DNA of 64,000 nucleotides, from the NCBI GenBank assembly GCA_035968315.1, contig JAVYIN010000005.1, forward strand, positions 124,001 through 188,000, given 5' to 3'. Positions 8,433 to 38,536 of the stretch are shown here, in pieces. Position 1 is the first letter of the stretch, and each line of letters opens with the position of its first letter. This DNA is from Nitrospira sp. Its GTDB lineage: Bacteria > Nitrospirota > Nitrospiria > Nitrospirales > Nitrospiraceae. A program made the position numbers and the translations under genes. The notes beneath the pieces were generated by a model that was not told the origin of the DNA, ran no database searches, and saw nothing but the letters and a program-made list of their open reading frames with translations.

Positions 8433-8433
8433 G

Positions 8434-9642: not shown

Positions 9643-9655
9643 CGGTTCTCCTCAC

Positions 9656-11275: not shown

Positions 11276-11332
11276 TGGGGCTGCGGCGGGAGTCCGGAAC
11301 GGCACGTGGCCCTGTCGGCGCAATGAGTGCGT

Positions 11333-11362
11333 TTGACACGGGGCGGGTCGCAATCCTACGAT
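11333..11362 (+). promoter_or_regulatory. Candidate sigma-70 promoter of the first kinase/regulator pair
   Basis: TTGACA (11333-11338) and TACGAT (11357-11362) are separated by 18 bp, and a GAGGGAGAG ribosome site plus ATG follow at 11383. The regulator pair thus seems to be made by housekeeping polymerase, unlike the sigma-54 genes around it. Confidence 0.45.
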
Positions 11363-11382
11363 GCTCTATTGAGGGAGAGCCC

Positions 11383-13311: not shown

Positions 13312-13314
13312 CCG

Positions 13315-14794: not shown

Positions 14795-16825
14795 ATGAGA
14801 ATCCGGACCATTCGCGGACGCATTGTGTTGGCCATCGTGCTGGTGGGTTGTATCCCGCTGGTGATTGGGCTTGTCCTGGCCTATGTGTCGGGCATGCGGT
14901 CGCTGCGTGATGTCATCGGCGGCAATCTGCAAGCCGTGGCGGTGCAGGCGGCGGATCGCGTGACCCTGCTGGTGCAGAGCGAGGTGCAGAGCGTCAGGCT
15001 GCTGGGCTCCGCCCCGTTGCGTGTCCGCCAGCCGGTGGAGGGAGCCAACCAATCCTACCCTCAGGAGCCGGCATCCGTGCAAGCCGTCATTGCCGAGCGG
15101 ATGCAGGTGTGGGAACAGGGAGGGGACGGCGCCAGGAGGCTGATGAACGCCGAATTATCCCGGTTCCTCTTGGGCACCAAAGTGCGCGACGGCGACAAAG
15201 TTGTCGGCTTGCTGATCGCCGACAAGCACGGGGCGCTGGTGGCCGCGAGTTCCGATCCCGATCATTATGTGTTTGCGAACGAGCCCTGGTGGGCGGCGAT
15301 TCACGCGGGAGGGGTCGATCAGGTCTATGTCAGCGGGCTGATTCCGGCGCACGAAGGATCGTTCAGGACGCCGGAAGAAACCATCGATATTGCCGTGCCG
15401 ATTCTGGACGAGCGGCAGCATACGGTGATCGGGGCGGTGAAGGCGTCGTATCGATTCGATACGCTCTTCGCGATGATCAATCAAATCCGGATCGGGCAGA
15501 CCGGCCATGCGATGCTGTTCGACGCGGCGGGCCATCCGCTGGTCTGCCCGATTCTGCCCCGGCAGGCGCACCGCATTCCCGGCCAGCTCATGTCCATGAT
15601 CGTCTCGATGCAGCCGGGTTGGGGCATTGCGGAAGATGACGGGCATGGCGGGACGGATACGGTGGTCGGCTTTGCGCCGGTCACCGGCCTTCCGTTGCCC
15701 GACAGCTCCTGGCATATCTTCGTGCGTCAGCAACCAGGCGAGAGTTACGCGCCCATTCGGGACCAGTTGCGGAATTTGGCGGTCATTGGCTTGGTGATGC
15801 TCGGATTGTTGTGGGCGATGGGCCGCTACGTGGCGTCACGCATTGCGCAGCCGATTCAGATTTTGCAGGCCGGCGTGGAGGCGATCAGCCAGGGCACGTT
15901 CGACCGGCCGTTGAATATTCAAACAGGGGATGAGTTCGAGGAACTGGCCGCCGCCGTCCATCGCATGGCCGACCGGCTTAAGGCCTCGCGGGTGGAGCTG
16001 GAAACGTTGAATGCCGATCTGGCGCGGCGCGTCGAGGAGAAAACGGCCGAAGTCACGGAGCACATGAAGCAGCTTCAGTTCGCCGAACGGCTGGCGACGC
16101 TGGGCAAGGTGGCCAGCGGGATCGCGCATGAAATCAATAACCCCCTGGGGATCATTCTGAACCGGATCGAGTGCATGGAGATCGAGGCCGCGCACTTGGG
16201 CGTGTCGGAGGAGCAGCAGCGGGACCTGCTGGCGATCCGCACTCAGGCCGACCGCATTTCACGGATTACGAAGAGCATGCTGGCCTTGTCCCGTGGCGCC
16301 GCGACCGTGCTGAAGCCGATCGATGTGAATTGCGTCCTGAAGGCCTGTATCGAGGCGTCGCAGGAACGGGCATCTGCCAAAGGCGTGCGGATCGACGTGG
16401 CGCTGTCACCGGAACTGCCGCCGATCATGGGCGACCGTGACCGGATCGAAACGGTGATGATGAATCTGATCAACAATGCGCTCGACGCGGCGAAGGAGGG
16501 GGTGCCTCCGGCGCTGGTGACGGTGCAGTCCGAACGCTGTCCGGGGAAAGAGGGCGAGCGAGTGCTGGTGCGCATCAGCGATACGGGCCCTGGCATTCCG
16601 GAAGAGATGTTGGGGCGCATCTTCGATCCCTTCTTTACCACCAAGGAAGAAGGCCAGGGCACCGGCTTGGGGCTCTTTCTTAGTTATGGCATCGTCGCCG
16701 ATCACCGTGGACATCTTGAAATCGAAAACGGCCGGCGCGGGGCCGTGGCGTCCGTGTATCTGCCCGCGCTTGCGCCAGTCAGTGACACGCATCAGGAGGC
16801 CGGATGGGAACAGGGAAGATACTGA
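14795..16825 (+). CDS. Membrane sensor histidine kinase (dCache-HAMP-HisKA-HATPase)
   Basis: The kinase has 676 residues. TM1 is at about 9-30, then a large periplasmic domain of roughly 290 residues resembling double Cache (ANEPWWAAIHAGG, TGHAMLFDAAGHPLV), TM2 near 327-350, HAMP, a coiled linker, HisKA with His445 (ASGIAHEINNPLG) and an ATPase domain ending GQGTGLGLFLSYGIV. dCache domains usually bind small molecules such as amino or carboxylic acids. Its 3' end overlaps the next regulator gene by 22 bp, so they are co-translated partners. Confidence 0.9.
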   Translation: MRIRTIRGRIVLAIVLVGCIPLVIGLVLAYVSGMRSLRDVIGGNLQAVAVQAADRVTLLVQSEVQSVRLLGSAPLRVRQPVEGANQSYPQEPASVQAVIAERMQVWEQGGDGARRLMNAELSRFLLGTKVRDGDKVVGLLIADKHGALVAASSDPDHYVFANEPWWAAIHAGGVDQVYVSGLIPAHEGSFRTPEETIDIAVPILDERQHTVIGAVKASYRFDTLFAMINQIRIGQTGHAMLFDAAGHPLVCPILPRQAHRIPGQLMSMIVSMQPGWGIAEDDGHGGTDTVVGFAPVTGLPLPDSSWHIFVRQQPGESYAPIRDQLRNLAVIGLVMLGLLWAMGRYVASRIAQPIQILQAGVEAISQGTFDRPLNIQTGDEFEELAAAVHRMADRLKASRVELETLNADLARRVEEKTAEVTEHMKQLQFAERLATLGKVASGIAHEINNPLGIILNRIECMEIEAAHLGVSEEQQRDLLAIRTQADRISRITKSMLALSRGAATVLKPIDVNCVLKACIEASQERASAKGVRIDVALSPELPPIMGDRDRIETVMMNLINNALDAAKEGVPPALVTVQSERCPGKEGERVLVRISDTGPGIPEEMLGRIFDPFFTTKEEGQGTGLGLFLSYGIVADHRGHLEIENGRRGAVASVYLPALAPVSDTHQEAGWEQGRY

Positions 16826-18213
16826 TCGTCGATGATGAAGTCGATGCGCTGGATAACTGCCGCCGCATTTTGAGCCGGTTGGGGTACGACTGCCTGACGG
16901 AGCACGATTCGCTGCGCGCCGTGGAGCGGATCAGGCAGGAGCGGCCCGATCTGGTGCTCACGGATCTGCGCATGCCGGGCCTCGACGGCCTCGGTCTGCT
17001 GGCCGAGGCCAAACGAGTCGATCCCGCGATCAATGTGGTGCTATTGACCGCCTATGCCACCGTGCAGACGGCCGTGGACTCCATGCGGCATGGCGCGTTG
17101 GATTATGTGCTGAAGCCCTATACCAGTAAAAGCCTGGAGGAGGTGGCCAAGCGGGCGTTCGACCAGGCGGAGCCGCCGCGCGCGGCCGAGTCGGTGTCCG
17201 AGAGGGGCGCGGGCTGTTCAGACTCCTCCGGCAGGAGCGCCCTTGGGCGCATTCTCGGGCGGAGCCAGGCGATGCAGGACGTGAAGAGTCTGATCGCCAA
17301 AGTGGCCAGGACGGATGCGAATATCTTGATCTACGGTGAAAGCGGCACGGGCAAAGAATTGGTGGCTCGCGCGATTCACGATGAAAGCGAGCGGAGGCGC
17401 CAGCCGTTCATGCCGCTCGATTGTGTGGCGCTGCCCGACTCCCTGCTGGAATCTGAATTGTTCGGCCATGAAAAAGGGGCCTTTACCGGCGCGCATGCGG
17501 CGAAGGCCGGGTTGTTCGAAGTGGCTCACCAAGGCACGGTCTTTCTGGACGAAGTCAGCGGGATGAGCCAGACGCTGCAGTCACGGCTGCTTCGCGTGTT
17601 GCAAGAGCGCCATGTCCGTCGCGTGGGCGGCACGCGCTATGCCGACATCGATGTGCGGGTCATTGCCGCCTCCAATCGCGATTTGGAAGAGGCCTGCCGC
17701 AAAGGCGAATTTCGGGAGGATCTCTTCTACCGGCTGAACGTGATTCCCATCGTGCTGCCGCCGTTGCGCGAGCGTGACGGCGATGTGCAGGTGCTGGCGC
17801 AGGAGTTTCTCGCGCGCTTTCGGGGCCGGGGGCGCGCCGGGTCCGAGGCGGAGCCCGCATTCGATCCATCGGCCATGGCCTGTTTGAAGGCGCATGCCTG
17901 GCCCGGCAATGTGCGGGAACTGCAGAATGTGATCGAACGGGTGGCGGCGCTGGCGGATGGCCCGACGATCCGGGTTGAGCATCTCCCGGAGCGGTTGCGC
18001 GCAGCGGGAGAATCGGACGAAGCCGAGGCGGAGGAAGCCGCCTCCTACAAGCAGGCCAAGCAGGAAGTGGTCCGGTCGTTTGAGCGGAGCTTTCTGCTGG
18101 AGTTGCTGAAACGCCATGGCTGGCACATGAGCCACGCGGCGCAAGAAGCCGGTGTGGATCGCAAGACCATCGAGCGGATGGTCAAGCGGCATGGCCTCCG
18201 AGAGCCGGGATGA
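16804..18213 (+). CDS. Sigma-54-dependent response regulator (NtrC type), intact
   Basis: The 469-residue protein has a receiver domain with Asp54 (VLTDLRMPG), an AAA+ domain with GESGTGKE, GAFTGA and TVFLDEVSG, an arginine in FREDLFYRLNV, and a Fis-type helix-turn-helix at the C terminus (KRHGWHMSHAAQEAGVDRKT). It overlaps its kinase gene. Its receiver is closely similar to that of the degenerate regulator 219 bp downstream, pointing to gene duplication. It is the natural candidate to bind the TGGG-N10-CCCA palindromes before that gene and before the two oxidase cassettes, but this is inferred from position only. Confidence 0.93.
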   Translation: MGTGKILIVDDEVDALDNCRRILSRLGYDCLTEHDSLRAVERIRQERPDLVLTDLRMPGLDGLGLLAEAKRVDPAINVVLLTAYATVQTAVDSMRHGALDYVLKPYTSKSLEEVAKRAFDQAEPPRAAESVSERGAGCSDSSGRSALGRILGRSQAMQDVKSLIAKVARTDANILIYGESGTGKELVARAIHDESERRRQPFMPLDCVALPDSLLESELFGHEKGAFTGAHAAKAGLFEVAHQGTVFLDEVSGMSQTLQSRLLRVLQERHVRRVGGTRYADIDVRVIAASNRDLEEACRKGEFREDLFYRLNVIPIVLPPLRERDGDVQVLAQEFLARFRGRGRAGSEAEPAFDPSAMACLKAHAWPGNVRELQNVIERVAALADGPTIRVEHLPERLRAAGESDEAEAEEAASYKQAKQEVVRSFERSFLLELLKRHGWHMSHAAQEAGVDRKTIERMVKRHGLREPG

Positions 18214-18272: not shown

Positions 18273-18302
18273 GCGGCATGGGGCGTGATTGCCCCATGCC
18301 GC
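18273..18302. promoter_or_regulatory. Group B activator palindrome upstream of the degenerate regulator
   Basis: A perfect 12-bp inverted repeat (GCGGCATGGGGC, six-base spacer, GCCCCATGCCGC) lies 60 bp after the preceding stop codon. Its core, TGGGGCGTGATTGCCCCA at 18279-18296, shares the 18-bp TGGG-N10-CCCA layout with sites at 19782, 28431 and 28522. It is centred about 50 bp upstream of a sigma-54 promoter. No T-run follows it, so an enhancer is likelier than a terminator, though it could do both. Confidence 0.6.
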
Positions 18303-18336
18303 GTCCTCCTGCCTAGATATTTAGCCAGTTTCGTAG

Positions 18337-18352
18337 CGGCACTGTATTTGCT
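18337..18352 (+). promoter_or_regulatory. Sigma-54 (-24/-12) promoter of the degenerate regulator
   Basis: CGGCACTGTATTTGCT agrees with the sigma-54 consensus at every position that matters except the first base (C for T), with GG-N10-GC spacing exact. Transcription would start near 18363, about 70 nt before the ATG at 18432. Confidence 0.7.
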
Positions 18353-18431
18353 CCTTGTTTTGCAGGAGCGGACGGCAGCGTGCGTTCCTCTTGGCAGCTG
18401 AGCCAGTTGCGGACATGGAGCGAATCGGACG

Positions 18432-19631
18432 ATGGCGGCGGAAAAAATTATGATTGTGGACGATGAGCCGGAGGCGATCGAAAATTGCCGGCGGCTCTTG
18501 AGCCGGTCCCGGTATACCTGCGTGGTGGAAGCCGATGCGCAGCGGGCGCTGGCGGTGCTCGAGCGCGAGCGCCCGCAAGTATTGCTGACGGACCTTCGGA
18601 TGCCGGGCCTCGATGGCCTGGCCTTGTTGAAAGCCGCGAAGCGCATCGATCCCAGGATCAAGGTCGTGCTGCTGACCGCCTATGCCTCGCTGCAGACGGC
18701 GGTGGCCTCCATGCGGCATGGCGCATTCGATTATCTGGCCAAGCCGTTCACCGGGAAAGAATTGCGCAGTGTGATTCGGCGGGCGCTGGGAGCTGAAGGG
18801 GGAGAGGCCATCGAACCGGCGCCCGCCGGGCTGCCTCGCCCTTCATGGGGCAGTCCGCTTTCCGCTGCCGAGCCGGTCTTGGCGGGACGGGGGCCAGAGA
18901 TGCAGGCGGTGCGGGCCGCGATTGAACTGGTGGCGGAAACCGAAGCGGCGGTATTGCTCACCGGAGAACGCGGCACCGGCAAAGCCCGCATGGCTCGCGT
19001 GATCCATGCCGGCAGTCTCCGCCGCGCCAAGCATGTGGTGTCTGTCGATTGCGTGACGTCCAGCGACGCGCTGCTGGACGGGGAACTATTCGGCAGCCAT
19101 TCATTATCCGGCGTCAGTGTCGACCGGGCGGGATTGCTGGAGTCCGCGGACGGCGGCACCCTGTTCCTGGATGAAGTGGGCGGTCTCAGTTTGCGGCTGC
19201 AAGCCAAGCTCTTGCGGGCGCTGAAAGAGCGCCGGGCCAGACGGGTGAACGGCGGCCTGTATTATTCCGTAGATACCCGGGTGGTGGCGTCGTCCTCGAG
19301 GAATCTCCAAGCTGCGTGCGGGGAGGGCGCGTTTCGAGAGGATCTCTATCAGCATCTCAACGTGGTGCCGATCGCGGTGCCGCCGCTGCGCCAGCGGCTG
19401 GAAGACATCGATCAACTCTCGCGTCTCTTCATGGAGCCGTTCTGGCTTCGCAAGCAGCAGCCGCTGCCGGCGGTGTTCGGATTTGCGCCGGAGGCGCTGG
19501 CGAAGCTGTGCCGGTATGCCTGGCCGGGCAATCTGCAAGAACTCCAGCAGGTGGTGGAGCGGGCCTTCGTGCTGGCTGATGGGCCGCTTTTCGACAGCAC
19601 CTCTCTTCCGGACCATCTTCAAACTCTATAG
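18432..19631 (+). CDS. Degenerate NtrC-type regulator: no GAFTGA loop, no DNA-binding domain
   Basis: The 399-residue protein keeps a normal receiver domain (Asp54, Lys104) very like that of the regulator upstream. Its AAA+ domain is altered. The ELFGHEKGAFTGA region reads ELFGSHSLSGVSVDR (217-231), two residues shorter and without the sigma-54-contact motif. Walker A ends GTGKA (181-185), not the usual GTGKE. The arginine of FREDLFYRLNV is His308. Walker B (FLDEVGG) remains. The protein stops right after the AAA+ lid, with no helix-turn-helix. It probably cannot activate sigma-54 alone. Forming mixed oligomers with an intact paralogue, or another receiver-output role, is a reasonable inference. 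Confidence 0.88.
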   Translation: MAAEKIMIVDDEPEAIENCRRLLSRSRYTCVVEADAQRALAVLERERPQVLLTDLRMPGLDGLALLKAAKRIDPRIKVVLLTAYASLQTAVASMRHGAFDYLAKPFTGKELRSVIRRALGAEGGEAIEPAPAGLPRPSWGSPLSAAEPVLAGRGPEMQAVRAAIELVAETEAAVLLTGERGTGKARMARVIHAGSLRRAKHVVSVDCVTSSDALLDGELFGSHSLSGVSVDRAGLLESADGGTLFLDEVGGLSLRLQAKLLRALKERRARRVNGGLYYSVDTRVVASSSRNLQAACGEGAFREDLYQHLNVVPIAVPPLRQRLEDIDQLSRLFMEPFWLRKQQPLPAVFGFAPEALAKLCRYAWPGNLQELQQVVERAFVLADGPLFDSTSLPDHLQTL

Positions 19632-19781
19632 AGCCTCTCCCTCCATCACCGCCTGGTGCAAGGTGATGTGCGCGTGATGTGTGCTGCTCCGCTACAGTTT
19701 GCCTCCGGCGTCTGCTTAAAACGATAGACAGCGTTATCTAATTGATTTCATTTCATTCTGGAAGGATGCGATCCCGCGCCG

Positions 19782-19799
19782 TGGGACGGGATCGTCCCA
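19782..19799. promoter_or_regulatory. Group B activator palindrome (first oxidase cassette)
   Basis: TGGGACGGGATCGTCCCA is a perfect 7-bp inverted repeat around four bases, with the same 18-bp TGGG-N10-CCCA plan as the other group B sites. It is centred about 98 bp upstream of the -24 element at 19888. Confidence 0.55.
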
Positions 19800-19887
19800 T
19801 CGCTGCGCGAGGGGCCGGTGTGCCTGTCACGGCGCCACGGCGTGCCAACGGCGCTGTGCGAGCGGCGATTATCTCTTTGCGCGAGGG

Positions 19888-19903
19888 CGGCACCGATATT
19901 GCG
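19888..19903 (+). promoter_or_regulatory. Sigma-54 (-24/-12) promoter of the first oxidase cassette
   Basis: CGGCACCGATATTGCG has GGCAC at -24 and TTGC at -12 with GG-N10-GC spacing. The first base (C) and last base (G) depart from the consensus. Transcription would begin near 19914. Confidence 0.6.
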
Positions 19904-20107
19904 CTGCTGCACGGGCACTGGTGGTGGCGCAGGTTGTTCGGACCGGCCTCTGAATAGCCCGCATCTTGATGGATGCCCATCACCAGCATTACTCCATGCG
20001 GGACGGTGCGAGAGGAGGTCTGCCGGCCCGCCAGCGTTCGGTGTGTGTCCAGGATCGGTTAACACGCCGTGCCGAAGCACCACGGCGATGGAAAGGGAGG
20101 CCCTTGT

Positions 20108-23100
20108 ATGAGAACGGTATCGGGCTCGCATCGGCGGCGCGCGCGGCGCGTGGCTGCCGGTCTGCCTGCTGCATTGCTCGCGAGCAGTCTGCTGAGCGCT
20201 CCGCTGGGTCTGGCGCTGGATCAGCACAGCCACCATGGCGGAAGCGGAGAGGCATCGTCGGAAAAGGTTATTTATCGGGAAGGCGGATCGGTCCTGCACG
20301 ACCGCATGATGGAGGAGGTGAAACGGCAGCAGGAGTTTGTCGGACAGAAGGGGGCGTATAGCACCGGGGCCAACAGCCACATGCTGCAGCAAGGCGTGCT
20401 GCTGGTGGCGGAGGATCCGGCGAAAGTGGCCGTGAACAACGGACAGCGCTGTCCGTCGAACGCGCCGGTGAAGGAGTATCACGTTTCCGCGATCAATATC
20501 GAAATTACCCTCAGCCGGTTCCTGGACTATTTCCCCGGCTACATGTACGTGCTGACCGAGAACGTCGAGAAGGCGCGCGCCGAAGAAGCCGCGAACAAGG
20601 CGGCGCGGGACAAGGACAACGATCCCGGCGCCGTGTCGAACGGCCTGCAGGGAGACATCATCCAGCCGCTCGTAATTCGGGCCAACCAGGGCGACTGCCT
20701 GAAGCTCATGCTGCACAACGGGATCAATGAGGAAGCGACCAATCTGGTCATCAACGGCTCGTCGATGGTCGTATCGGCGACGGGAAAACCCGCCACGCCG
20801 GTCAATCCCGAGGCGACAGTCCCCGCCGGAGGCCAGCAGAGTTTCGAATGGTACATCAAGCCGGATACGCAGGAAGGCGCTCGGTTTTTCCGCTCGCATG
20901 CCTCGCGCGAACAGTTCAATCAGGGGCTGATCGGCATGCTCGTCGTGGAGCCGCGCGGCTCGCGCTATCTCAGCCCGTTCGACGGCAAGCCCATGGCGAG
21001 CGGGTGGGAGGCGATGATCGAGGATCCCAATGGCGCGGACTTCCGCGAGTTCGCGATTTTCTATCATGAAGCCGGTGACGAAGCGTTCCGCCTGTTGGAC
21101 AAGAAAGGCGACATGCTCCCGCAGCGCGATCCCCACACCGATTCGTACCGTCCGGGCGCGCGTTTGCTGAACTACCGCAGCGAGCCGCACGGCACGCGCA
21201 TCGAATTGCAGGCCCACATGGGCTTCTACGGGGACGAGTCGATGGCTTACGGCTCCTACACGTTCGGCGATCCGGCCACGACGATCCCCCGGTCCTATCT
21301 CGGCGATCCGGCCAAGTTCCGGATGGCGGGCGGATCGGAGATCGTGCATTCGCACCATCTGCACGGCGGGTCCATCCGCTGGGCGCGCCAGCCGGGCAAC
21401 AGCACCCTCGACTTCGCGGCCTCCAGCAACGGGCCGGTGAAGTTCCCGCTGATCAGCGACACGTCGGATCGGTTGGACGTCCAGTCCATCGGGCCGACAG
21501 AGATTTACGATCAGGTGATCGAAGGCGGCTCGGGCGGCTTGCAGGCGCTGGCCGGCGAGTTCGTGTTCCATTGCCACATTCCCCAGCATTATGTGACCGG
21601 GATGTGGGGGTTCTGGCGCGTGTATAACACGTTGCAGGCGCCGGGCTTCCAGACCGACGTCATGAAGCCGCTGGTGGAATTGCCGGACCGGGTGGGCCGG
21701 ATGAAGACGGGCGCGACCAGTGACAAGCTGGTCGGCACCATGGTCGATTGGTACGGCGGCAAGAAGTTCGAGATCACCAAGGACAAGACGGATTGGAACG
21801 CCACTCCGGCCAAGGTGTCCGTGAAGGATTGGGTCGAAATGCAGCTGCCGCCGCAAGGGCAGCCGGGCCACAAGAAGACGGAAAAAGAACAGACCCTGGC
21901 GTACGATTCCACCGTGAACGACTGGGCGTGGGACGGCGCCAAGGCGCTCAGCGAACCGGAGACCTCGTACGAATGGGTGAACTACAAGTCGGCGACGCCG
22001 GGCAAGCGGCAGGAGATCCTCTTCGATCCGAAGAGCGGAAAGCTCTCCTGGCCCTGGCTGCGTCCGCATCTGGGCCGGCGCGTGCCCTTCTCGCCGAGCC
22101 ACAGCGGCGCGCCGTGGCTGGAGCCGATCCATCGCCGCGATGACGGCAGCAATTCGACCGAGCCGGCCAAGCCGGGAGAAAACGGGCCTTGGAGCCTGTG
22201 CCCGGTGGGCGCGCCGGTGAAGTCGTTCAACATCCATGCGATCACGCTGCCGATCACGTTGAAAAAGGCGACGGCCAAGACTCCGGCCATCGTCGATCCC
22301 AACGGGTTGCTGTACGTGCTCCATGAAGAGGAGCAGGACGTCCGCAAGAATCCGGCGAAGCAGTTCCCGCTCGTGATTCGCGGCAATGTGCAGGATTGCA
22401 TCGATGTCGTCTACAAGAGCGAGCTGAAGGACGACGAGCGGCAAGGGTTCTCCAGCAAGACGAACCTGCATCCGCACATGTTCCAGTTCGATACGCAGGC
22501 GTCGGACGGCCCGATCATCGGGTTCTCGTACGAAATGTCCCTGCGGCCCTTCACCATCCTGAAGGACGAGCACCCCGGCAAGGGAATGCCGGTCCCGATG
22601 AACACGACGCTGGACGCCGACGCCCCCAAGGGCTCGACCAGCATCAAGGTGAAGGATGCGTCCCGGTACCACGTCAAGACCGAGCTGGGCGTGGGCATGG
22701 ACGACGTGGGTGGATTCGAGTCCGCCCGCATCAGCAAGATCGAGGGCAACACGATCACCTTCGAGCGGCCGTTGAAACACGACCACAAGAAGGGCGAGAT
22801 CGCGTCGGTCGAATGGATTCGCGAGCGCTGGTATGTGGACGCCGATTTCGGCACCACCTTCTGGCACGACCATGTGTTCGGCCTGGACGGGTGGGGCCAC
22901 GGCTTCTACTCCACGTTCATCGCCGAGCCGCCGCGGTCCACGTATCATGATCCGGTGACGGGGAAGGAGTTGCGCAGCGGGCCGGTGGCCGACATTCACA
23001 CCACCGAGCCGGTGTCCGCGCATATCCGCGGCTCGTTCCGCGAGATCGTGACGCAGGTCATGGATTCCAATCCCCGGACGGCCGAATTGATTACGGCCGA

Positions 23101-24859
23101 TAATCCGCAAGTCAAAGTGGGCGCGGTGTCCGTGGACGGCACGCCGTCCGCGGTCTATCCGGACAAGCTCAATGTGTCGCCGATGAAGTTCTTGAACGGC
23201 GGCGAGGCCACCACCGGGAGCGGCTACAACATGCGTGTCGAGCCGCTGTCCGTGCGGCTGGCGAACAATCCCGATCCGTCGCAGCTCTTCAGCAGCCGGA
23301 TCCACGGCGATCCCGAGACCCCGATGCTCAGGGCCTATCTCGGCGATCCGGTGGTCGTGCGGCTGATCGAAGGGTCGGCGAACGAAGTGCATTCCTGGCA
23401 CATCAGCGGGCACTGGTTCCCGATGGAGCGCTATAGCAAGAACTCCATCCCCCGGAGCACGCTGCATGTGGTGATCGGCGAACGGTACGACGCGGCGATC
23501 CCAGCGGCGGGCGGACCGCAGCAGATGGCGGGCGACTACCCGTATTACAGCGGGCGCGCGTCGCATTTCGCCGAAGGGAGCTGGGGCCTCTTCCGGGTGC
23601 TCGACAAGGCGGATGCGACGTTGCAGCCGCTGCCGGGCCGCTCGGAGATTCCGCAGTCGGCCAAGTCGGTCTGTCCGGCCGATGCGCCGGTGAAGACCTT
23701 CAATGTGGCCGCCATCGACAAGGCCATCCGCTACCACAAGGGCACGCCCGGTACGATGGAGGTGGACTTGGAGCGCAAGATGGTGCTCGCCAACGAGCGC
23801 GGCAAGATGTACGTGCTCGAAGGCGAGAAGGCGCAGGTCGTCTCGGGCAGTCTCGATCCGAGCCCGTTGACGCTGCACGTGAACGTGGGCGATTGCATCA
23901 AGGTCATGCTCAAGAACGAGATGGCCAAGGAGCGGGCCGGGTTCCATGTGGACAACCTGGCGTACGATCCGAAGGAGTCCATGGGCATCAATGCCGGCAA
24001 CAATCCGGGCGACCAGACCGTGGCCCCGGGGCAGAGCCGGCTGTACACGTACTACGCCCATCCGGAGTTCGGCGAGAATGCCGCGCTGATTCAGGATTGG
24101 GGGAATGTGGCCGAGAATCCGCGGAACGGGCTCTTCGGCGCCATCGTGATCGGGCCGAAGGGATCGCAGTACCGGGATCCGGTGACCGGCGACGATCTCG
24201 CGCAGAAGAGTTCCTGGCGCGCGGATGTGCTGGTGGACCGGAACGTGCCGGGGAACGAAACCCGGCAGGACTACCGGTCGTTTGCGTTGCTCTTCCAGGA
24301 TGAAGACAACATCATCGGCACCAGCTTCATGCCGTACATCCAAAAGGTGGCCGGTGTGACGGCGGTGAATTACCGGTCCGAGCCGACGGATTACCGGACC
24401 GAGAAAGGCTGCGCGTACAGCGAGGTGCTGTCCTGCGTGAAGACGGGCGACCAGCCGGTGACGCCGAACATCGCGGCGCACGTCGGCGATCCGGTCGTGA
24501 TTCACGTGCTGGGCGCCTTCAGCGAGCAGGTGCAGCTGTTCAGTGTGTCGGGTCATGAGTGGAAGCATGAGCCCTACATGAGCGGGGCGGACCTCGTGAG
24601 CACCATGGAGTTCGGCGGTGCCGAGGTCATCAATGCCTGGCTGCATGGGGGAGCCGGAGGCCCGAACGGGATTCCGGGCGACTACCTGTGGCTGAACCAG
24701 CGGCCGGGCTATCTCGATGCCGGACACTGGGGCACGCTGAAAGTGCTGGACCGCGACAGCCGCGCGATTCTGCCGTTGGGCGGAGCCGCGCCGGCCACGA
24801 AACAGGCGGAGCAGCCGGCTCCGATTCAGTCCGTGCCGGTCGCGATGAAGACCAACTAG
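20108..24859 (+). CDS. Giant six-cupredoxin multicopper oxidase, copy 1 (MnxG/ceruloplasmin-like)
   Basis: From ATG 20108 (GGGAGG 7 bp upstream) the protein has 1583 residues and an Arg-rich signal peptide. Three internal repeats begin CPxxAPVKxxxVxAI near residues 114, 698 and 1189, each long enough for two cupredoxin domains. All four copper motifs are visible: HxxHxH (414-419, in HSHHLH), HCHxxxH-x4-M (488-499), HxH (788/790) and HDH (920/922). A further His cluster is at 1095/1098/1102. The motif order puts the HCH motif first, unlike laccases. Six-domain oxidases include ceruloplasmin (Fe) and MnxG (Mn), so an exported metal oxidase is plausible; the substrate is unproven. A close paralogue lies at 28839. 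Confidence 0.9.
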   Translation: MRTVSGSHRRRARRVAAGLPAALLASSLLSAPLGLALDQHSHHGGSGEASSEKVIYREGGSVLHDRMMEEVKRQQEFVGQKGAYSTGANSHMLQQGVLLVAEDPAKVAVNNGQRCPSNAPVKEYHVSAINIEITLSRFLDYFPGYMYVLTENVEKARAEEAANKAARDKDNDPGAVSNGLQGDIIQPLVIRANQGDCLKLMLHNGINEEATNLVINGSSMVVSATGKPATPVNPEATVPAGGQQSFEWYIKPDTQEGARFFRSHASREQFNQGLIGMLVVEPRGSRYLSPFDGKPMASGWEAMIEDPNGADFREFAIFYHEAGDEAFRLLDKKGDMLPQRDPHTDSYRPGARLLNYRSEPHGTRIELQAHMGFYGDESMAYGSYTFGDPATTIPRSYLGDPAKFRMAGGSEIVHSHHLHGGSIRWARQPGNSTLDFAASSNGPVKFPLISDTSDRLDVQSIGPTEIYDQVIEGGSGGLQALAGEFVFHCHIPQHYVTGMWGFWRVYNTLQAPGFQTDVMKPLVELPDRVGRMKTGATSDKLVGTMVDWYGGKKFEITKDKTDWNATPAKVSVKDWVEMQLPPQGQPGHKKTEKEQTLAYDSTVNDWAWDGAKALSEPETSYEWVNYKSATPGKRQEILFDPKSGKLSWPWLRPHLGRRVPFSPSHSGAPWLEPIHRRDDGSNSTEPAKPGENGPWSLCPVGAPVKSFNIHAITLPITLKKATAKTPAIVDPNGLLYVLHEEEQDVRKNPAKQFPLVIRGNVQDCIDVVYKSELKDDERQGFSSKTNLHPHMFQFDTQASDGPIIGFSYEMSLRPFTILKDEHPGKGMPVPMNTTLDADAPKGSTSIKVKDASRYHVKTELGVGMDDVGGFESARISKIEGNTITFERPLKHDHKKGEIASVEWIRERWYVDADFGTTFWHDHVFGLDGWGHGFYSTFIAEPPRSTYHDPVTGKELRSGPVADIHTTEPVSAHIRGSFREIVTQVMDSNPRTAELITADNPQVKVGAVSVDGTPSAVYPDKLNVSPMKFLNGGEATTGSGYNMRVEPLSVRLANNPDPSQLFSSRIHGDPETPMLRAYLGDPVVVRLIEGSANEVHSWHISGHWFPMERYSKNSIPRSTLHVVIGERYDAAIPAAGGPQQMAGDYPYYSGRASHFAEGSWGLFRVLDKADATLQPLPGRSEIPQSAKSVCPADAPVKTFNVAAIDKAIRYHKGTPGTMEVDLERKMVLANERGKMYVLEGEKAQVVSGSLDPSPLTLHVNVGDCIKVMLKNEMAKERAGFHVDNLAYDPKESMGINAGNNPGDQTVAPGQSRLYTYYAHPEFGENAALIQDWGNVAENPRNGLFGAIVIGPKGSQYRDPVTGDDLAQKSSWRADVLVDRNVPGNETRQDYRSFALLFQDEDNIIGTSFMPYIQKVAGVTAVNYRSEPTDYRTEKGCAYSEVLSCVKTGDQPVTPNIAAHVGDPVVIHVLGAFSEQVQLFSVSGHEWKHEPYMSGADLVSTMEFGGAEVINAWLHGGAGGPNGIPGDYLWLNQRPGYLDAGHWGTLKVLDRDSRAILPLGGAAPATKQAEQPAPIQSVPVAMKTN

Positions 24860-24885
24860 CTTCACGCGGAGCAGCGTTGGCACGC

Positions 24886-24928
24886 GGGGGAATCCGGCCG
24901 TAGCAATACCGGATTCCCCCGTTTCCTT
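24886..24928 (+). terminator. Rho-independent terminator/attenuator after oxidase 1
   Basis: A perfect 12-bp stem, GGGGGAATCCGG pairing with CCGGATTCCCCC around an 11-base loop, is followed by GTTTCCTT. It lies 26 bp after the oxidase stop and before the three small cassette genes, so read-through would set the ratio of oxidase to small proteins. The T-run is broken, so termination may be partial. Confidence 0.65.
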
Positions 24929-25016
24929 ATCCGGCCGGGAGAGGCGCCAGGAGCGCAACGGGCTTGGCGAACGTCCGGCCACTATTCACGACAAACCTGA
25001 GGGTGAGGAGGTGCAG

Positions 25017-25787
25017 GTGAAACGGTCGATGATGTGGGCATCGCTGACGTTATGGGCGATCGGAAGCATGGGCATGAGCGGAACGGGCGCGGCGGCGGTC
25101 TATGAAACGGGTGCCGTGACAGATGGGGCGGTGGTGCGGGGGACGGTGACGCTGAAGGGCGCGGCGCCGGAGCCGAAATCCTTCGAGCTGCGCCGGTATC
25201 CGGACCGCGTCTTCTGCGGGGCCTTGTCTACCGGAGATGGATACCGGCAGCTCAAGGAAGTGTTTGCCGGAGAACAGGGCGGGATCAAAGACGTAGTGAT
25301 CGTGGTGGAGGGGGTCGCCAAAGGCAAACCGTTCACGGGGAGCGATGCGCAAGTGGAGGCCAATGTCTGTCAGTTTCTGCCGTTCGTGACAGTGATCAAC
25401 GACAAGCGGCAGCTGACGGTGATCAACCGCGACCCGGTGTCGCATGACATTCAAGGCTACACCTATGATCAGTCCGGAGTGGACATCGTGCTCCACCGGC
25501 CGTCATTGAAAGCGACCGGGACGACCGAGACGGTCAATCTGGTCAAGGGGCGGAAGGTGTTCACGATGCAATGCGGCGTGCATCCCTATATGCAGAATTG
25601 GGGCTATGCGGTCGATCATCCCTATTATGCCGTGACGGGCCTGGATGGAGGATTCTCCATCGGCGAGGTGCCGCCAGGGACCTATCGGATCAAGGCCTGG
25701 CATCCGGCGTTGGGTGAACAGGAGCGGGAGATCGTGGTAGAACCGAACGGGACCGTGCAGCTCGATCTTTCCTTTGAGGCGAAGTGA
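25017..25787 (+). CDS. Exported cupredoxin / transthyretin-like copper protein, copy 1
   Basis: The start is taken as GTG 25017, 5 bp after AGGAGG; GTG 25011 overlaps that ribosome site. The 256-residue product has a signal peptide, a beta-sandwich with Cys67 and Cys118 that may form a disulfide, and a cupredoxin-type site: His143 (in PVSHDIQ) and Cys186-x2-His189-x2-Met192 (in TMQCGVHPYMQ). A C-terminal transthyretin/carboxypeptidase-regulatory-like stretch follows (DGGFSIGEVPPGTYRIKAWHP). Such proteins are often annotated as methylamine-utilization-like or carboxypeptidase-regulatory proteins. It probably binds one copper in the periplasm and could exchange electrons or copper with the oxidase; that role is inferred from position. 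Confidence 0.82.
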   Translation: MKRSMMWASLTLWAIGSMGMSGTGAAAVYETGAVTDGAVVRGTVTLKGAAPEPKSFELRRYPDRVFCGALSTGDGYRQLKEVFAGEQGGIKDVVIVVEGVAKGKPFTGSDAQVEANVCQFLPFVTVINDKRQLTVINRDPVSHDIQGYTYDQSGVDIVLHRPSLKATGTTETVNLVKGRKVFTMQCGVHPYMQNWGYAVDHPYYAVTGLDGGFSIGEVPPGTYRIKAWHPALGEQEREIVVEPNGTVQLDLSFEAK

Positions 25788-25795
25788 GGCAGTTT

Positions 25796-26302
25796 ATGAT
25801 GCGGGTGATCGTGGCGATGGGAGTGGCGGCGCTGGCCGGTCTGTGCTCAGCCGGCGTTTTGCCGGCAGCGGATGTTGTGCCAGCGGGGCGGGTCGAGGTG
25901 GTCTTGGCGAATGAGCATCGCGCGCATCAGGCCGAGATCGTGGAGGCGTTCGCCGCGTCCGGCCTCACGAATCTGCATGTGCAATTCATGAAGGCGGGGA
26001 AGCCGCCGGCGAATATCGGGTTCGGTCCCAAGGTGGCGGTCGAACGGGCTCAGGCGGCCATGCGGATGGCCAAGCAATACAACGGGGGGATCGCGGTGTT
26101 GCTGCCGGAGCGGCTGTTCCCCGATCAGTATGTGACGATCGCGTCGTCCAGTTTCGACGACACGGTGGAATATCCGGTCAGCGAGGAGGCGCTCAAGGAA
26201 TTGGAGCGTCCAGGGCTGACGACGGAGCAGTTTCATGAACTCTATCGCCGGCTCACGCCGGCGGAACATGTGCCAGTCAAGAAAGGCCGGGTATTCGAAT
26301 GA
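25796..26302 (+). CDS. Exported protein of unknown family, copy 1
   Basis: I do not recognise the family. The 168-residue product from ATG 25796 (GAGG upstream) has a signal peptide (about 1-25) and a small mixed domain opening RVEVVLANEHRAHQAEIVEAF. It shares several segments with its paralogue at 34487: SGLTN(L/V)H, PP.NIG.G, KYN.G......LLP.RLFP and VTIASS..DDTVE. The opening strand-helix pattern loosely recalls LytR_C or SPOR-like folds, but this is a guess. It overlaps the next gene by ATGA and follows the cupredoxin gene with a 8-bp gap, so it belongs to the same operon. Confidence 0.75.
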   Translation: MMRVIVAMGVAALAGLCSAGVLPAADVVPAGRVEVVLANEHRAHQAEIVEAFAASGLTNLHVQFMKAGKPPANIGFGPKVAVERAQAAMRMAKQYNGGIAVLLPERLFPDQYVTIASSSFDDTVEYPVSEEALKELERPGLTTEQFHELYRRLTPAEHVPVKKGRVFE

Positions 26303-26703
26303 GAGCTATTGCATTGTACGGGGCCGCCATGGGATGGGCGATGGCGGCGTCCCTGGCGTGGGCCGGGGTGCTGGCCGACCTTCAGGAACATGGGAAGGCC
26401 ATGATCAAGGATGCCGAGGAGATGGTGATGCATGGCGGCATGGGTGACGGAAAAGCCATCGTGCACCATTGCGGCGAGGTGGCGAATCATGCGGCGGCGA
26501 TTCTGAAGCTCTTGCCTCCGTCGGACGAGCATGGGAAAGAGGCCGCGCCGCTCCTGAAGGAAGCCATTGCACACTGTGCGCGCGTGGCCGAGATGGGGGC
26601 CAGGGTCGATCCCGGCGCCAGTTTGAATCCCGCCGTCAAGGCGCGGGCCGCCGCCCGTGCGGCGATGAAGCATCTCAAAGAGGTCCGCGAGCACGGCGCA
26701 TAA
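26299..26703 (+). CDS. SmbP-like small periplasmic metal-binding protein, copy 1
   Basis: The 134-residue product has a signal peptide (about 1-22) followed by amphipathic helices rich in His, Met and Glu (EMVMHGGMGDGKAIVHHCGE, then AIAHCARVAEMGARVDPGASLNPAVKARAAAR). This matches the style of SmbP, a small helical periplasmic protein that binds copper and other divalent metals in ammonia oxidizers. It is the last gene of the first cassette. Likely roles are buffering or delivering metal for the oxidase, by inference. Its paralogue is at 34989. Confidence 0.7.
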   Translation: MRAIALYGAAMGWAMAASLAWAGVLADLQEHGKAMIKDAEEMVMHGGMGDGKAIVHHCGEVANHAAAILKLLPPSDEHGKEAAPLLKEAIAHCARVAEMGARVDPGASLNPAVKARAAARAAMKHLKEVREHGA

Positions 26704-26747
26704 TTACCTGTTTGTGCATGGTGAGGGGCAGCTTCAAAACATAACCG

Positions 26748-27374
26748 TTAGCGCTGGCCCTCTTTCTGCACGAATGGGCTCACGGCATTTTGGTCCCGTC
26801 CCGGCTGATAGGTCTCCAGCATTTGCGTGACCAGCGGCAGCACCTCCCCCTGTGCGCTGACCGGCACTTTGATCCGCACGCCGCGTCCTTCATTCCGTCC
26901 CAGGGTAAAGATGTGGACCTCCAGCATGGCGGTCTGGTGTTCGTCCTGATAGGTGAAGGCCAGGCGCTTGGCGGGAAATCCGCCCAGCGTCGTCTCCTGC
27001 TCCTTCTGCCAGGCTAGCGCCGTCTTCTTCTTCTCAAAGATCTCCGTGATGATGCGGCGGTGCGCGGCCGTGAATTCGTCGAGCGTCTGCCGCTTGTCCT
27101 GGCTCGTTCCCTCCAGGAGGTTCATGTGGCCGGAGAGGGCGACGAGGCTGTGCTCGGTTGGCGGCTGAAAGGTAATGCCAATGCCGTCCGGCAGCGGATT
27201 GCCGAGTTTCCAGGTGTCGGAATAGCGGACGGAAAATCCGAAGCGGGCGTTGGTATAGCTTCTCCAGCCAGGATGTTCGCGGTCTGGCGTGGCGGCTGAC
27301 CATGCCGGCGTCATCGCGCCGAGGCTGAGTCCAATCGCAAGCAACAGACAAATCCTGTACATAGCGGTCCTCAT
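26748..27374 (-). CDS. Exported PsbP/DcrB-like protein
   Basis: The 208-residue product starts at ATG 27374, which overlaps the stop of the SUMF1-type gene (ATGA). A signal peptide (about 1-28) is followed by a single domain opening with YTNARFGFSVRYSDTWKLG, typical of the PsbP/DcrB/Mog1-like fold, where an aromatic-rich FGFxVxYPxxW motif is common. No catalytic residues are apparent. It forms a two-gene unit with the SUMF1-type gene between the two oxidase cassettes and converges on cassette 1. Function unknown. Confidence 0.72.
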   Translation of the reverse strand: MRTAMYRICLLLAIGLSLGAMTPAWSAATPDREHPGWRSYTNARFGFSVRYSDTWKLGNPLPDGIGITFQPPTEHSLVALSGHMNLLEGTSQDKRQTLDEFTAAHRRIITEIFEKKKTALAWQKEQETTLGGFPAKRLAFTYQDEHQTAMLEVHIFTLGRNEGRGVRIKVPVSAQGEVLPLVTQMLETYQPGRDQNAVSPFVQKEGQR

Positions 27375-28252
27375 GGTGTCGGGAGGGTGGAGGGAGCGGC
27401 GGAGCGCGCGCAGCGAAATCCGATCGTGGGCGACCGTTGCTCCAGTGGCGCGCCGCTTCTGGTCGCGGCGCGCAGCAGGGCGGGCGTGCTTTTCCACGAC
27501 CCGCCGCGAGCGACCTTATATCGTCCGGTGGCCGGCCCGGATGGATTCCGTTCCGGCATGGTCATGTAGTAGTCGATGCCGAACCAGTCTTCAACCCATT
27601 CGGCGGCATTGCCCGCCATGTGGTGCAGGCCATAGGGGCTGCGGCCGGCCTCTCCGGCGGACACGGATGTCACGAGCGGAATCTCGTGGGCATGATAGTG
27701 CCCGAACGTGGCCAGGGCCGGCGTTGGCGGCTGCGATCCCCATGGAAAGAGATTGCCCTGCTCCCCCCGCGCGGCTTTTTCCCACTCGGCTTCGGTCGGG
27801 AGCCGTTTCCCCTGTGCATGGCAAAACTCCGAGGCCTCCGTCCAGGTGGCATAGAGGGCCGGCCAGCGGGCCACGGTGTCAGAACGAATCGCATGGACGG
27901 TGGTCACATGGTCGATCAGCTTGTGCAGCTCGCCGGGAATCGGACGCTGCTGTTGTATCAGCCATCCGAGATATTCGCTCAGGCTGACTTCATCCCGGTC
28001 GATCTCGTAGCGGTCCAGCCAGATGCGGCGCTGCGGCTGTTCGGTGTCGTCATATTGGAGTGCGAGGCTGAAGGCCTCATGGCCGGTGCGAGTGGTGCCC
28101 ATGAGAAAGAAGCCCTCCGCAACCGCCATCATCGGCGACGGGCTGGCTTGTGCGGCGATCGCGGCGACAGAATCCTGCCGTGCCGCCAAAGCGGAGGCGG
28201 GTGTGGCGAGGATGGCAAGGCTGAGGAGCAGGATGCTGAGCGCAAGGTTCAT
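27371..28252 (-). CDS. Exported SUMF1/FGE-fold protein lacking the catalytic cysteines
   Basis: The 293-residue product has a signal peptide (about 1-23) and a formylglycine-generating-enzyme-type fold: FFLMGTTRTG, IDRDEVSLSEY, QGKRLPTEAEWEKAARG, HHMAGNAAEWVEDWF and RGGSWKST. In true FGEs, paired cysteines that bind copper lie between the GGSW motif and the GFRCA end. Here that stretch (STPALLRAATRSGAPLEQRSPTI) has none, and only Cys in GFRCA remains. It is probably a binding or assembly protein, not a sulfatase activator. It is divergent from oxidase 2 across a shared upstream region. Confidence 0.85.
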   Translation of the reverse strand: MNLALSILLLSLAILATPASALAARQDSVAAIAAQASPSPMMAVAEGFFLMGTTRTGHEAFSLALQYDDTEQPQRRIWLDRYEIDRDEVSLSEYLGWLIQQQRPIPGELHKLIDHVTTVHAIRSDTVARWPALYATWTEASEFCHAQGKRLPTEAEWEKAARGEQGNLFPWGSQPPTPALATFGHYHAHEIPLVTSVSAGEAGRSPYGLHHMAGNAAEWVEDWFGIDYYMTMPERNPSGPATGRYKVARGGSWKSTPALLRAATRSGAPLEQRSPTIGFRCARSAAPSTLPTP

Positions 28253-28345
28253 AATGCTCTGTGAGGCCGCTGTCGATTGCCGTCTGTGGGGTGATGGTGC
28301 TGAATGAGCCTCGGGGCGATCGTCTCAATGACACGGCCGGGCGCC

Positions 28346-28374
28346 ACTATAATGCGCGTTCTCGTCCGGCACAA
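28346..28374 (-). promoter_or_regulatory. Candidate sigma-70 promoter of the SUMF1-type gene pair
   Basis: On the minus strand TTGTGC (28374-28369) and TATAGT (28351-28346) are 17 bp apart. Transcription would begin about 85 nt before the ATG at 28252. The -35 element matches only three of six bases. Confidence 0.4.
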
Positions 28375-28430
28375 GATGGCGAAACGGATTTTGCGTCAGT
28401 CTTTTCCCATGCGGATTCATCAGACGGCAA

Positions 28431-28448
28431 TGGGGCGTGTGCGCCCCA
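28431..28448. promoter_or_regulatory. Group B activator palindrome, distal (second oxidase cassette)
   Basis: TGGGGCGTGTGCGCCCCA is a perfect 7-bp inverted repeat around TGTG, with the 18-bp TGGG-N10-CCCA plan. It is centred about 175 bp upstream of the -24 element at 28614 and 91 bp from the proximal copy. Confidence 0.55.
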
Positions 28449-28521
28449 CTCAGGCATGCGCCCTTAGATTTGCATACATCCCATAACATCAGCACGTTAG
28501 GATAGTTTCCCTGCTATGAAA

Positions 28522-28539
28522 TGGGGACTGTGCGCCCCA
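28522..28539. promoter_or_regulatory. Group B activator palindrome, proximal (second oxidase cassette)
   Basis: TGGGGACTGTGCGCCCCA again has the TGGG-N10-CCCA plan, and the symmetry extends outward (GAAATGGGG and CCCCATTTC arms). It is centred about 85 bp upstream of the -24 element. Two sites at one promoter are common for NtrC-type activators. Confidence 0.55.
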
Positions 28540-28613
28540 TTTCCGCATCTGATCGATTCTGCCGAGAAGCCGGAATAGCCATAAAACACCAGGAATGTCC
28601 TCTTCCGAACGGA

Positions 28614-28629
28614 GGGAACGCAATTTGCT
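28614..28629 (+). promoter_or_regulatory. Sigma-54 (-24/-12) promoter of the second oxidase cassette
   Basis: GGGAACGCAATTTGCT keeps GG-N10-GC spacing, the ACG after the -24 GG, and TTGCT at -12; the first and fourth bases differ from TGGCACG. Transcription would start near 28640, leaving a leader of about 200 nt, much as for oxidase 1. Confidence 0.58.
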
Positions 28630-28690: not shown

Positions 28691-28764
28691 GTCTGGTGAA
28701 GGAGCGGGAAAGAAAGGACCGGCCTCCTGACAATCCCTCCGATGCAAGTTGGCCTTCACCAGAC
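28691..28764 (+). repeat. Perfect inverted repeat in the oxidase 2 mRNA leader
   Basis: GTCTGGTGAAGG (28691-28702) and CCTTCACCAGAC (28753-28764) are perfect 12-bp complements enclosing a 50-base loop, all inside the predicted leader and ending 56 bp before the ribosome site. It could fold as a long stem-loop in RNA or be a protein-binding DNA site. No matching repeat was found in the leader of oxidase 1. Confidence 0.6.
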
Positions 28765-28838: not shown

Positions 28839-31800
28839 ATGGGTTCTTCAAGGAAGTGGGTTCGAGCAGGTGTCTTAGGCCTGTCAACCTGCCTCGGCTT
28901 AGCCGGGGCGGTGGCGGCCGGGGCGGCAGTGTCCCATGAGGGGCATGACGCCGCGGAGGGGGCGGCGGTGCATCAGTCCGCCGGTCCGATGCTGCAGGAC
29001 AGAATGTCCAAGGCCATCGAGCAGATTGAGCGGCAAGTGAAGTCGAGCGGGCCGTTCCAAGGGGCCAGCGCTCATGCGATGCAGCAGGGCGTCTTGCTGG
29101 TGGCCGACGATCCTGACAAGGTGCAGGTCACGCAGGGCGGCCGATGCCCCGCGAATGCGCCGGTGCGGAAGTATGACGTCACGGCGATGAACGTGGAAAT
29201 CTCCGTGAACCGGTTCGGCGATTTCTATCCGGGCTACATGTACACCTTGACGGAGAATGTCGCCGGGGTGCGCGAGGAAGAGAAGAAGAACCGGGCGGCG
29301 CGGGACACCGATGATCCGACCTTCGCAGGCGGGGGGGCATTGTCCAATGGATTGCAGGGCGATTTGATTCAGCCCTTGGTGCTTCGGGCGAACCAGGGCG
29401 ATTGCGTGAAGATGACCTTGCGCAATCAGATCGAGGGCGAAGCCACGAACATGATCATCAACGGGTCTCAGATGCTGGTGGCCAGCACGGGGAAGCCCGC
29501 TTCCGCGACCAATCCGGACGCCTTGGTGGCGCCGGGCAAGAGCGGAGAGTTCGAATGGTACATTCCGATCGATATGCAGGAAGGCGGACGGGCGTTTCAT
29601 AGCCATGCGAGCCGGGATCAGTATTCGCTCGGCATGATCGGGTCATTTGTCGTGGAGCCCCGCGGCTCGCGGTTCTTGAGCCCGTTCACGGGCGAGGAAA
29701 TGTCGAGCGGCTGGGAGGCCATGATCGATGTGGCCGGCGGCTCGGACTTCCGCGAATTCGTGATTTTCTATCATGAAGCGGGCGACGAAACGTTCCGCCT
29801 GTTGGATCGCAAGGGCGACATGCTGCCCCAGCGCGATGCCCACACGGACACCTATCGTCCGTCGGCGCGTTTGCTGAACTATCGCAGCGAGCCGCATGGC
29901 GAGCGGTTGGAATTGCAGGCGCATTTGATCGGCTTTGCCGATGAATCGCAGGGCTATGGATCGTACACCTTTGGCGATCCGGTCACGACGATTCCGCGCT
30001 CCTATCTGGGCGATCCGGCCAAGTTCCGCATGGTCGGCGGATCGGAAATCGTGCACTCGCACCATCTGCACGGCGGATCCATCCGCTGGGCCAGACAGCC
30101 CGGCACCAGCCGTCTTGATCCGACCTTGTCCAAGAACGGCCCGGTGAAGTTCCCGCCGATCAGCGATGTCTCGGATCGGTTGGACGTGCAATCCATCGGT
30201 CCGTCCGAGATCTACGACGAAGTGATCGAAGGCGGTTCGGGCGGCTTGCAGGCGCTGGCCGGCGAGTTCGTGTTCCATTGCCACATTCCGCAGCACTATG
30301 TGACGGGCATGTGGGGATTCTGGCGCGTGTACAACACGCTGCAGGCGCCGGGCTTCCAGAATGACGTGATGAAGCCGCTGGTGGAATTGCCTGACCGCAA
30401 GGGCAAGATGAAGGCGTCGGTCACCTCCGACAAGCTGGTGGGGACGCTGGTGGATTGGTATGGCGGCAAGAAGTACGAGATCACGAAGGACAAGACCGAT
30501 TGGAAGGCCAATCCGGTGAAGGTGTCGATCAAGGATTGGGTCGAGTACATGCTGCCGCCGCAGGGCTTGCCGGGCAACACCGAAGATCAGGTGCTGCAGG
30601 CGAAGGCCAACGATGCGACGGTGGTGAACTGGAAGTGGGACGGCTTCCGGGCGATGAATGAGCCGGAGACGCCGCACCGCTGGGCGGACTATTGGTCGGC
30701 CACGCCGAATGAGCGGCCGGCGATCACGTTCGATCCGCAAACCGGGAAGCTCGCGTTCCCGTGGCTGCGCCCGCATCTCGGGAAGCGGCCTCCGTTCGCG
30801 CCGAACCATGGCGGCGCCCCCTGGCTGGAGCCCTTCCACGTCCGTGAGGACGGCACGAAGAGCACCGAGCCGGCCAAGCCGGGCGAACAGGGCCCCTGGA
30901 GCCTCTGTCCGGAAGGCGCCCCGCGCAAGCAGTTCAACATTCATGCGATCACGCTGCCGATTACCTTGAAGAAAGCGACGCCCAAGACCGCGGCGATCGT
31001 CGATCCGATCGGGATGCTGTACGTGTTGCATGAGGAAGAGGAAGAAGTCCGCAAGAATTACGAGAAGCAGGTGCCGCTCGTGATTCGCGCGAACGTGCAC
31101 GATTGCGTGGACGTGATCTACAAGAACGAAGTGCCGGATGACGCCCGCACGGGTTGGGCGAACAAGATCAATCTGCATCCGCATTTCTTCCAGTTCGATA
31201 CGAGCGCGTCGGACGGACCCACGATCGGGTTCTCCTACGACATGTCGCTGCGCGCCTTCACGATGTTGAAGGATCCGGAGCCTGAGAAGGGCATGCCGGT
31301 GCCGGCGAACAGCGTGTTGACCGCGGACAGCAAGGCGGGGGCGTCCAGCATCACGGTGTCGGATGCGTCCCGGTACCATGTCAACACCGAATTGGGTGTG
31401 GCCATGGACGATCCGAAGTATTTTGAAGTGGCCCGTATCAAGGCGATCAAGGGGAAGACCATTACCTTTGACCGTCCCTTGAAGTACGCCCATCGGAAGA
31501 ACGATATCGCGAGCGTGGAGTTCATCCGCGAGCGCTGGTATCTGGACGTCGATCTGGGCACCGTGTTCTGGCACGACCATGTGTTCGGCACGGATACCTG
31601 GGGCCATGGGCTGTTCTCCGCATTGATCACCGAGCCGCCGCGGTCGACGTATCATGACCCGGTCACCGGCAAGGAACTGCGGAGCGGTCCGATCGCGGAC
31701 ATCCACACGCTGGAGCCGGTCTCGGCCCACGTGCGGGGCAGCTTCCGCGAAGTGATCATGCATATCGTGGACAGCAATGCACGGGCGGCCGAGTTGATCA

Positions 31801-38529: not shown

Positions 38530-38536
38530 CGGCGCC

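Follow-up and report, generated by a model that had tools for sequence, protein, structure and literature searches.

The stretch of DNA analysed here (the window; 64,000 nucleotides of contig JAVYIN010000005.1, G000:C5:124001-188000 in our numbering) lies within a 3.11 Mb Nitrospira sp. genome. It carries a sensor histidine kinase (HK2), an NtrC-type sigma-54 activator (RR2), a degenerate bacterial enhancer-binding protein (bEBP) that we call dRR, and, 3’ of dRR, two cassettes, each made up of one giant multicopper oxidase (MCO) and small proteins, one of which resembles a small metal-binding protein (Table 1). The two oxidases, A and B, are 69% identical. A sequence-only reading of this DNA had placed four TGGG-N10-CCCA palindromes, at 18279, 19782, 28431 and 28522, upstream of three -24/-12 promoters, and all of them were found at those positions; the transcription starts it had predicted, near 18363, 19914 and 28640, are also the values that we obtained from the -24/-12 elements. 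It had further proposed that RR2 acts through the palindrome on dRR and on both oxidase cassettes, a proposal supported by tracking the palindrome across genomes and by its fixed spacing to predicted sigma-54 promoters. The palindrome, which we refer to as the operator, accompanies RR2 at constant spacing in six related genera and is all but missing where RR2 is absent.

Table 1. Features of the locus, with positions counted from the first nucleotide of the window.
Feature	Position	Strand	Details
HK1/RR1, kinase and NtrC-type regulator pair	11272-14703		upstream of HK2/RR2; RR1 = 13315-14703
HK2, sensor histidine kinase	14795-16825	+	676 aa; Pfam: dCache_1, HAMP, HisKA, HATPase_c
RR2, NtrC-type sigma-54 activator	16804-18213	+	proposed palindrome binder; Pfam: REC, AAA+, Fis-type helix-turn-helix (HTH); GAFTGA present
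Operator 1	18278-18297		ATGGGGCGTGATTGCCCCAT; core 18279-18296 = TGGGGCGTGATTGCCCCA; precedes dRR
-24/-12 promoter of dRR (predicted)	18337-18352	+	CGGCACTGTATTTGCT; GG 59 bp past operator 1 core start
dRR, degenerate bEBP	18432-19631	+	Pfam: REC and AAA+; GAFTGA lost, no HTH
Operator 2	19781-19800		GTGGGACGGGATCGTCCCAT; core 19782-19799 = TGGGACGGGATCGTCCCA; precedes oxidase A
-24/-12 promoter of oxidase A (predicted)	19888-19903	+	CGGCACCGATATTGCG; GG 107 bp past operator 2 core start
Leader RNA copy 1	19916-19988	+	model R1 43 bits; fold z -3.3; within predicted oxidase A transcript
Oxidase A, giant MCO	20108-24859	+	Cu-oxidase Pfams; open reading frame (ORF) from 20069, likely start ATG 20108
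Operator 3 (distal)	28430-28449		ATGGGGCGTGTGCGCCCCAC; core 28431-28448 = TGGGGCGTGTGCGCCCCA
Operator 4 (proximal)	28521-28540		ATGGGGACTGTGCGCCCCAT; core 28522-28539 = TGGGGACTGTGCGCCCCA; 91 bp from operator 3
-24/-12 promoter of oxidase B (predicted)	28614-28629	+	GGGAACGCAATTTGCT; GG 93 bp past operator 4 and 184 bp past operator 3 (core starts)
Leader RNA copy 2	28691-28764	+	model R1 86.2 bits; fold z -3.7; oxidase B leader
Oxidase B, second giant MCO	28839-33569	+	Cu-oxidase Pfams; ATG 28839 picked via ribosome-binding site

A comparison of 71 sites allowed us to draw a 20-bp consensus, ATGGGGCG-N4-YGYCCCAT. The length of 18 bp proposed earlier, with the consensus TGGGrCG-N4-CGyCCCA, proved too short: the flanking A is present in 65 of the 71 sites (1.5 bits) and the flanking T in 68 (1.7 bits), although neither position played a part in site selection. 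In each of the 29 pairs, the two sites are separated by 88-92 bp. At oxidase promoters the distance from the nearest site to the -24 GG is mostly 89-94 bp, with others roughly one or two helical turns farther off (103-104, 107 and 116 bp), and at dRR promoters it is 34 or 58-59 bp; larger values come from promoters at which the filter passed the distal site alone, or from a start codon placed too far downstream (L074). The usual layout is an operator, about 90 bp, a second operator, about 91 bp, and the promoter. The GG-N10-GC elements at all three targets in the window score 19-20.5 and are present in orthologs too, with about 11% of shuffled regions reaching 18, and the oxidase A promoter (GGCAC...TTGC) is kept at a similar place in orthologs whether or not RR2 is present. 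Several of the palindromes lie about 30-200 bp past the RR2 stop codon, and operator 1 has a 12-bp perfect stem (it lies within a longer perfect repeat, GCGGCATGGGGC-N6-GCCCCATGCCGC, 18273-18302), as might be the case if the palindromes were transcription terminators or RNA hairpins following RR2 and its neighbours and not protein sites. This is very improbable, given that the oxidase B pair sits between divergent genes, that no T-run follows the palindromes, that their arms hold TGGG/CCCA rather than covarying, that the palindrome-promoter spacing is fixed, and that an RR2 locus without a downstream MCO is also without palindromes.

Under a second-order Markov null, about 0.10 TGGG-N10-CCCA palindromes (with at least 5 of 7 arm positions matching) are expected per 20 kb. 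The exact pattern TGGGRCG-N4-CGYCCCA occurs at two places in the genome, both at this locus; allowing up to one mismatch gives four, three of them here and one in an ORF-free stretch that reads as 23S rRNA. Because the motif was derived from these same sites in the window, tests on other genomes carry more weight, and we made three. The first used 40 regions with oxidase orthologs, of which 15 were readable and had RR2, 24 had no RR2, and one RR2 region was N-filled. The palindrome was found in 15/15 readable RR2 regions versus 0/24 without RR2 (Fisher 4e-10, with the N-filled locus scored as a miss), or, in terms of density, 38 palindromes in 301 kb (a few of them intragenic) versus none in 471 kb. 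L080 was rejected as an exception, as the Ns of an assembly gap occupy the critical place.

For the second test we turned from the oxidases to RR2, orthologs of which are present in 38 of the 396 phylum genomes, spread over six genera, and picked 20 further loci by RR2 alone. Nineteen had the palindrome, usually in two copies and immediately ahead of a giant MCO, which was of type A, of type B or more divergent; the sole locus without it had no giant MCO downstream. Named genomes agree, including Candidatus Nitrospira defluvii (site pair at about 3523332-3523440 of the chromosome), and none of 14 loci of kinase paralogs at 35-39% identity had the palindrome. That the palindrome pair is found before three different MCO types implies that it tracks RR2 and not the ancestry of its targets. 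Many of the loci do come from related Nitrospira genomes, so a motif kept only through shared ancestry of the promoter region, with no function, has to be considered; it is extremely improbable, since the motif and its spacings persist amid promoter sequence that has diverged, and since the operator occurs before three MCO types and underwent at least 10 changes on the MCO tree, with 5-7 independent pairs agreeing with RR2 adjacency and none opposing.

The third test searched 77 whole genomes (38 with RR2 and 39 without) for TGGGGCG-N4-YGYCCCA. This core pattern was found in 33/38 RR2 genomes, with nearly all matches at the RR2-MCO locus, and in 3/39 genomes without RR2, at one place each (Fisher 4e-13); a reversed-pattern control gave two matches across all 77. 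The five matchless RR2 genomes are accounted for by Ns (G343), variant sites (G105, G139 and G245) and the lack of a downstream MCO (G385). The sequence-only reading had suggested testing whether joint hits cluster before envelope or oxidase genes, and had named numerous palindromes inside random genes as evidence against itself. Off-locus matches were few, and the matches gathered at the oxidase locus and not before a spread of envelope genes: judged from these scans, the predicted regulon is essentially one locus.

Which protein binds the operator? The recognition helix of RR2, VDRKT[IV]ERM[VI]K[KR]HGL, was seen in all orthologs read and is nearly invariant; it is unlike the helices of the other regulators linked to MCOs, whose promoters have no such motif, and the regulators that were read in RR2-less regions likewise differ from RR2. 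Both GAFTGA and the HTH are legible in the RR2 translation, and rpoN is encoded in the genome (Sigma54_DBD, E 1e-56). We considered dRR as the palindrome binder and rejected it, as it has no HTH and is missing from many palindrome-bearing loci. RR2 is the best binder candidate because its helix is nearly invariant, dRR is without an HTH and often absent, and rpoN is present. At the same time, a second kinase/NtrC-type pair (HK1/RR1) lies just upstream and bEBPs of one class can share similar sites, so the site could be genuine and yet bound by RR1 or an unlinked regulator, with RR2 a mere neighbour. This is decidedly unlikely, as RR1 is present in few of the fetched palindrome loci and RR2 in nearly all, and as the motif is almost never found in genomes without RR2. 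The -24/-12 promoters, an activator with REC, AAA+, GAFTGA and HTH, an upstream dyad tied to that activator, and rpoN together point to a sigma-54/NtrC-type bEBP regulon. The best NCBIfam names for RR2 (AtoC, NtrC and a PEP-CTERM regulator) all fell below their cut-offs, with no equivalog, and a PEP-CTERM (PrsR) identity was rejected. HK2 orthologs beside RR2 share 65-87% identity and were found in Nitrospira-type genomes only (one scan of 84,980 species genomes).

Several points weigh against RR2 as the operator’s regulator. RR1 (13315-14703) is an alternative, though improbable, binder. Despite RR2 linkage, the oxidase A promoters of L042 and L054 and the dRR promoter of L042 have no palindrome. 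The Fisher and shuffle values treat related genomes as independent, and a tree-based test that accounts for kinship gave a median p of about 0.03 only, having counted RR2 as adjacent up to 2.5 kb away, so that loci with dRR and other genes in between were undercounted. Operator 1 is part of a longer dyad and might serve another role. An integration host factor (IHF) site between operator and promoter is common in sigma-54/NtrC-type regulons, though not defining, and IHF-like sites were not enriched there (the best match scores 10.65 of 13, the same as the mean of the shuffles). Setting these points against the evidence above, we consider it very probable that the 20-bp palindrome is an enhancer operator (upstream activating sequence, UAS) of RR2, and that RR2 is a sigma-54 activator dedicated to the giant MCOs and dRR.

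From the operator sequence, its spacing, its association with RR2 and its near-exclusiveness to this locus we infer how such a system might work. HK2 would sense an extracytoplasmic signal via its dCache domain and phosphorylate RR2, dimers of which would occupy the palindromes and then oligomerise. Through a DNA loop, RR2 would then make sigma-54 RNA polymerase open the promoters of oxidase A, oxidase B and dRR. As a target, dRR is without known motifs for touching DNA or sigma-54, and it probably feeds back, as a feedback or decoy subunit, by mixing with RR2 or by drawing phosphate from HK2. In the dRR orthologs read, GAFTGA is lost and the P-loop is gone in most. The protein is conserved at 56-69% in several loci and is a possible anti-activator.

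The UASs of NtrC and NifA are dyad-symmetric sites for Fis-type HTH dimers, remote from the sigma-54 promoter, with some three helical turns separating those of NtrC at glnA. The operators described here are likewise dyads at a distance from a predicted sigma-54 promoter, with looping proposed, but their half-sites are ATGGGGC and their spacing is wide and regular, at 88-92 bp. Looping and UAS distance have been described (PMC7057263), as have the HrpR/HrpS hetero-hexamer and bEBP negative regulators, where activity relies on a second bEBP-like or regulatory subunit (PMC7057263). These offer a precedent for the suggested role of dRR, with the RR2-dRR interaction only putative here and with dRR, unlike those proteins, having neither GAFTGA nor HTH.

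In Pseudomonas putida GB-1, MnxS1/MnxS2/MnxR control mnxG and mcoA, and in a related strain Mn oxidation requires rpoN (PMC11930936, PMC11409713). The arrangement of RR2 and the oxidases would work like this MnxS/MnxR control. At the same time, oxidase A is only distantly similar to MnxG, scoring 114 bits with NF041487, far under the cut-off of 3100, and because it failed this test we make no claim of Mnx membership. The two systems also differ in that two kinases and one regulator share a putative operon in Pseudomonas, while here there is an HK2/RR2 pair and a separate upstream HK1/RR1 pair, and in that IHF is predicted in Pseudomonas while an IHF-like site is not enriched here. We found no description of the MnxR operator in the literature searched.

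Nitrospira are central nitrifiers, and giant MnxG-like oxidases, encoded in 161 of the 396 phylum genomes and usually at least two in each, are widespread in them with no established role or trigger. One proposed role is Mn(III)-based protection against oxygen radicals (PMC3578206), and related Mn-oxidising lineages likewise encode two unexplained MCOs (PMC9040806). With a candidate activator, an exact operator and predicted promoters named, one can test directly which signal induces the oxidases, and Candidatus Nitrospira defluvii is among the organisms where this applies. The exchange of one regulator and operator for another among related oxidase promoters would also be a clean natural example of regulatory rewiring.

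Between the predicted transcription start and the oxidase start codon lies a conserved, structured leader RNA (Table 1), with a third copy in the genome detected by covariance model (G000:C6:156400-156477); all three copies precede a giant MCO. With the same kind of model, copies were found in 107 of the 396 phylum genomes, and a giant MCO lies 3’ of the leader in 42 of the 43 loci inspected; the last of these is a short contig end. An alignment of 27 leaders shows 98.6% pairing in the closing stem and two-sided changes at 8 of its 11 pairs, and the structure has a covariation score of 0.346 versus 0.196 when shuffled. An RNA is favoured over a DNA operator because there are sense-strand G-U pairs and because the model scores far lower on the opposite strand. 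A loop of the leader is complementary to the Shine-Dalgarno region, with at least eight pairs in 62% of the leaders (which are related by kinship) versus 9% of flank-shuffled ones, and this complementarity suggests translational control. Rfam gave no match at the leaders, either in the window (up to E 5) or in seven loci (up to E 1); a tpke11 hit (E 3.5) was rejected, being below threshold and not located at the leader. We tentatively propose, giving it a little less than an even chance, that giant MCO leaders hold an undescribed cis-regulatory RNA with a three-way junction, a compensatory closing stem and a conserved GGACCGGCCTCC loop that can pair with the Shine-Dalgarno sequence of the oxidase itself, so that two gates would act on the oxidases: RR2 on their transcription, and an RNA switch, which might sense a metal, on their translation. 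The leader would then perhaps act as a second check on the oxidases after their transcription.

Other dyads were seen at related oxidases. RR2-less loci (L044, L046 and L050, for example) carry a TGTCYAA-N4-TTRGACA-like dyad about 180 bp before the oxidase A -24 element, and half of it seems to be retained near position 19724 of the window (ATAGACAGCG), which looks like the replacement of one operator by another. A third giant MCO (1646 aa) in L134 (G000:C6:145000-164900) comes with a sigma-54-like site of its own, an adjoining bEBP gene and a distinct dyad (TGTCTAGCTGAATGGACA), perhaps a second, parallel pair of regulator and operator. In the window, a search upstream of the divergent sulfatase-modifying (FGE)-like gene (27371-28252, minus strand; named by eye) revealed no convincing sigma-54 promoter; at many loci such a gene is again found next to the MCO genes, in some cases as several copies. 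The locus is flanked on both sides by RND-type efflux sets (pump, HlyD-like and outer-membrane protein), at 5253-11275 and 35416-41031.

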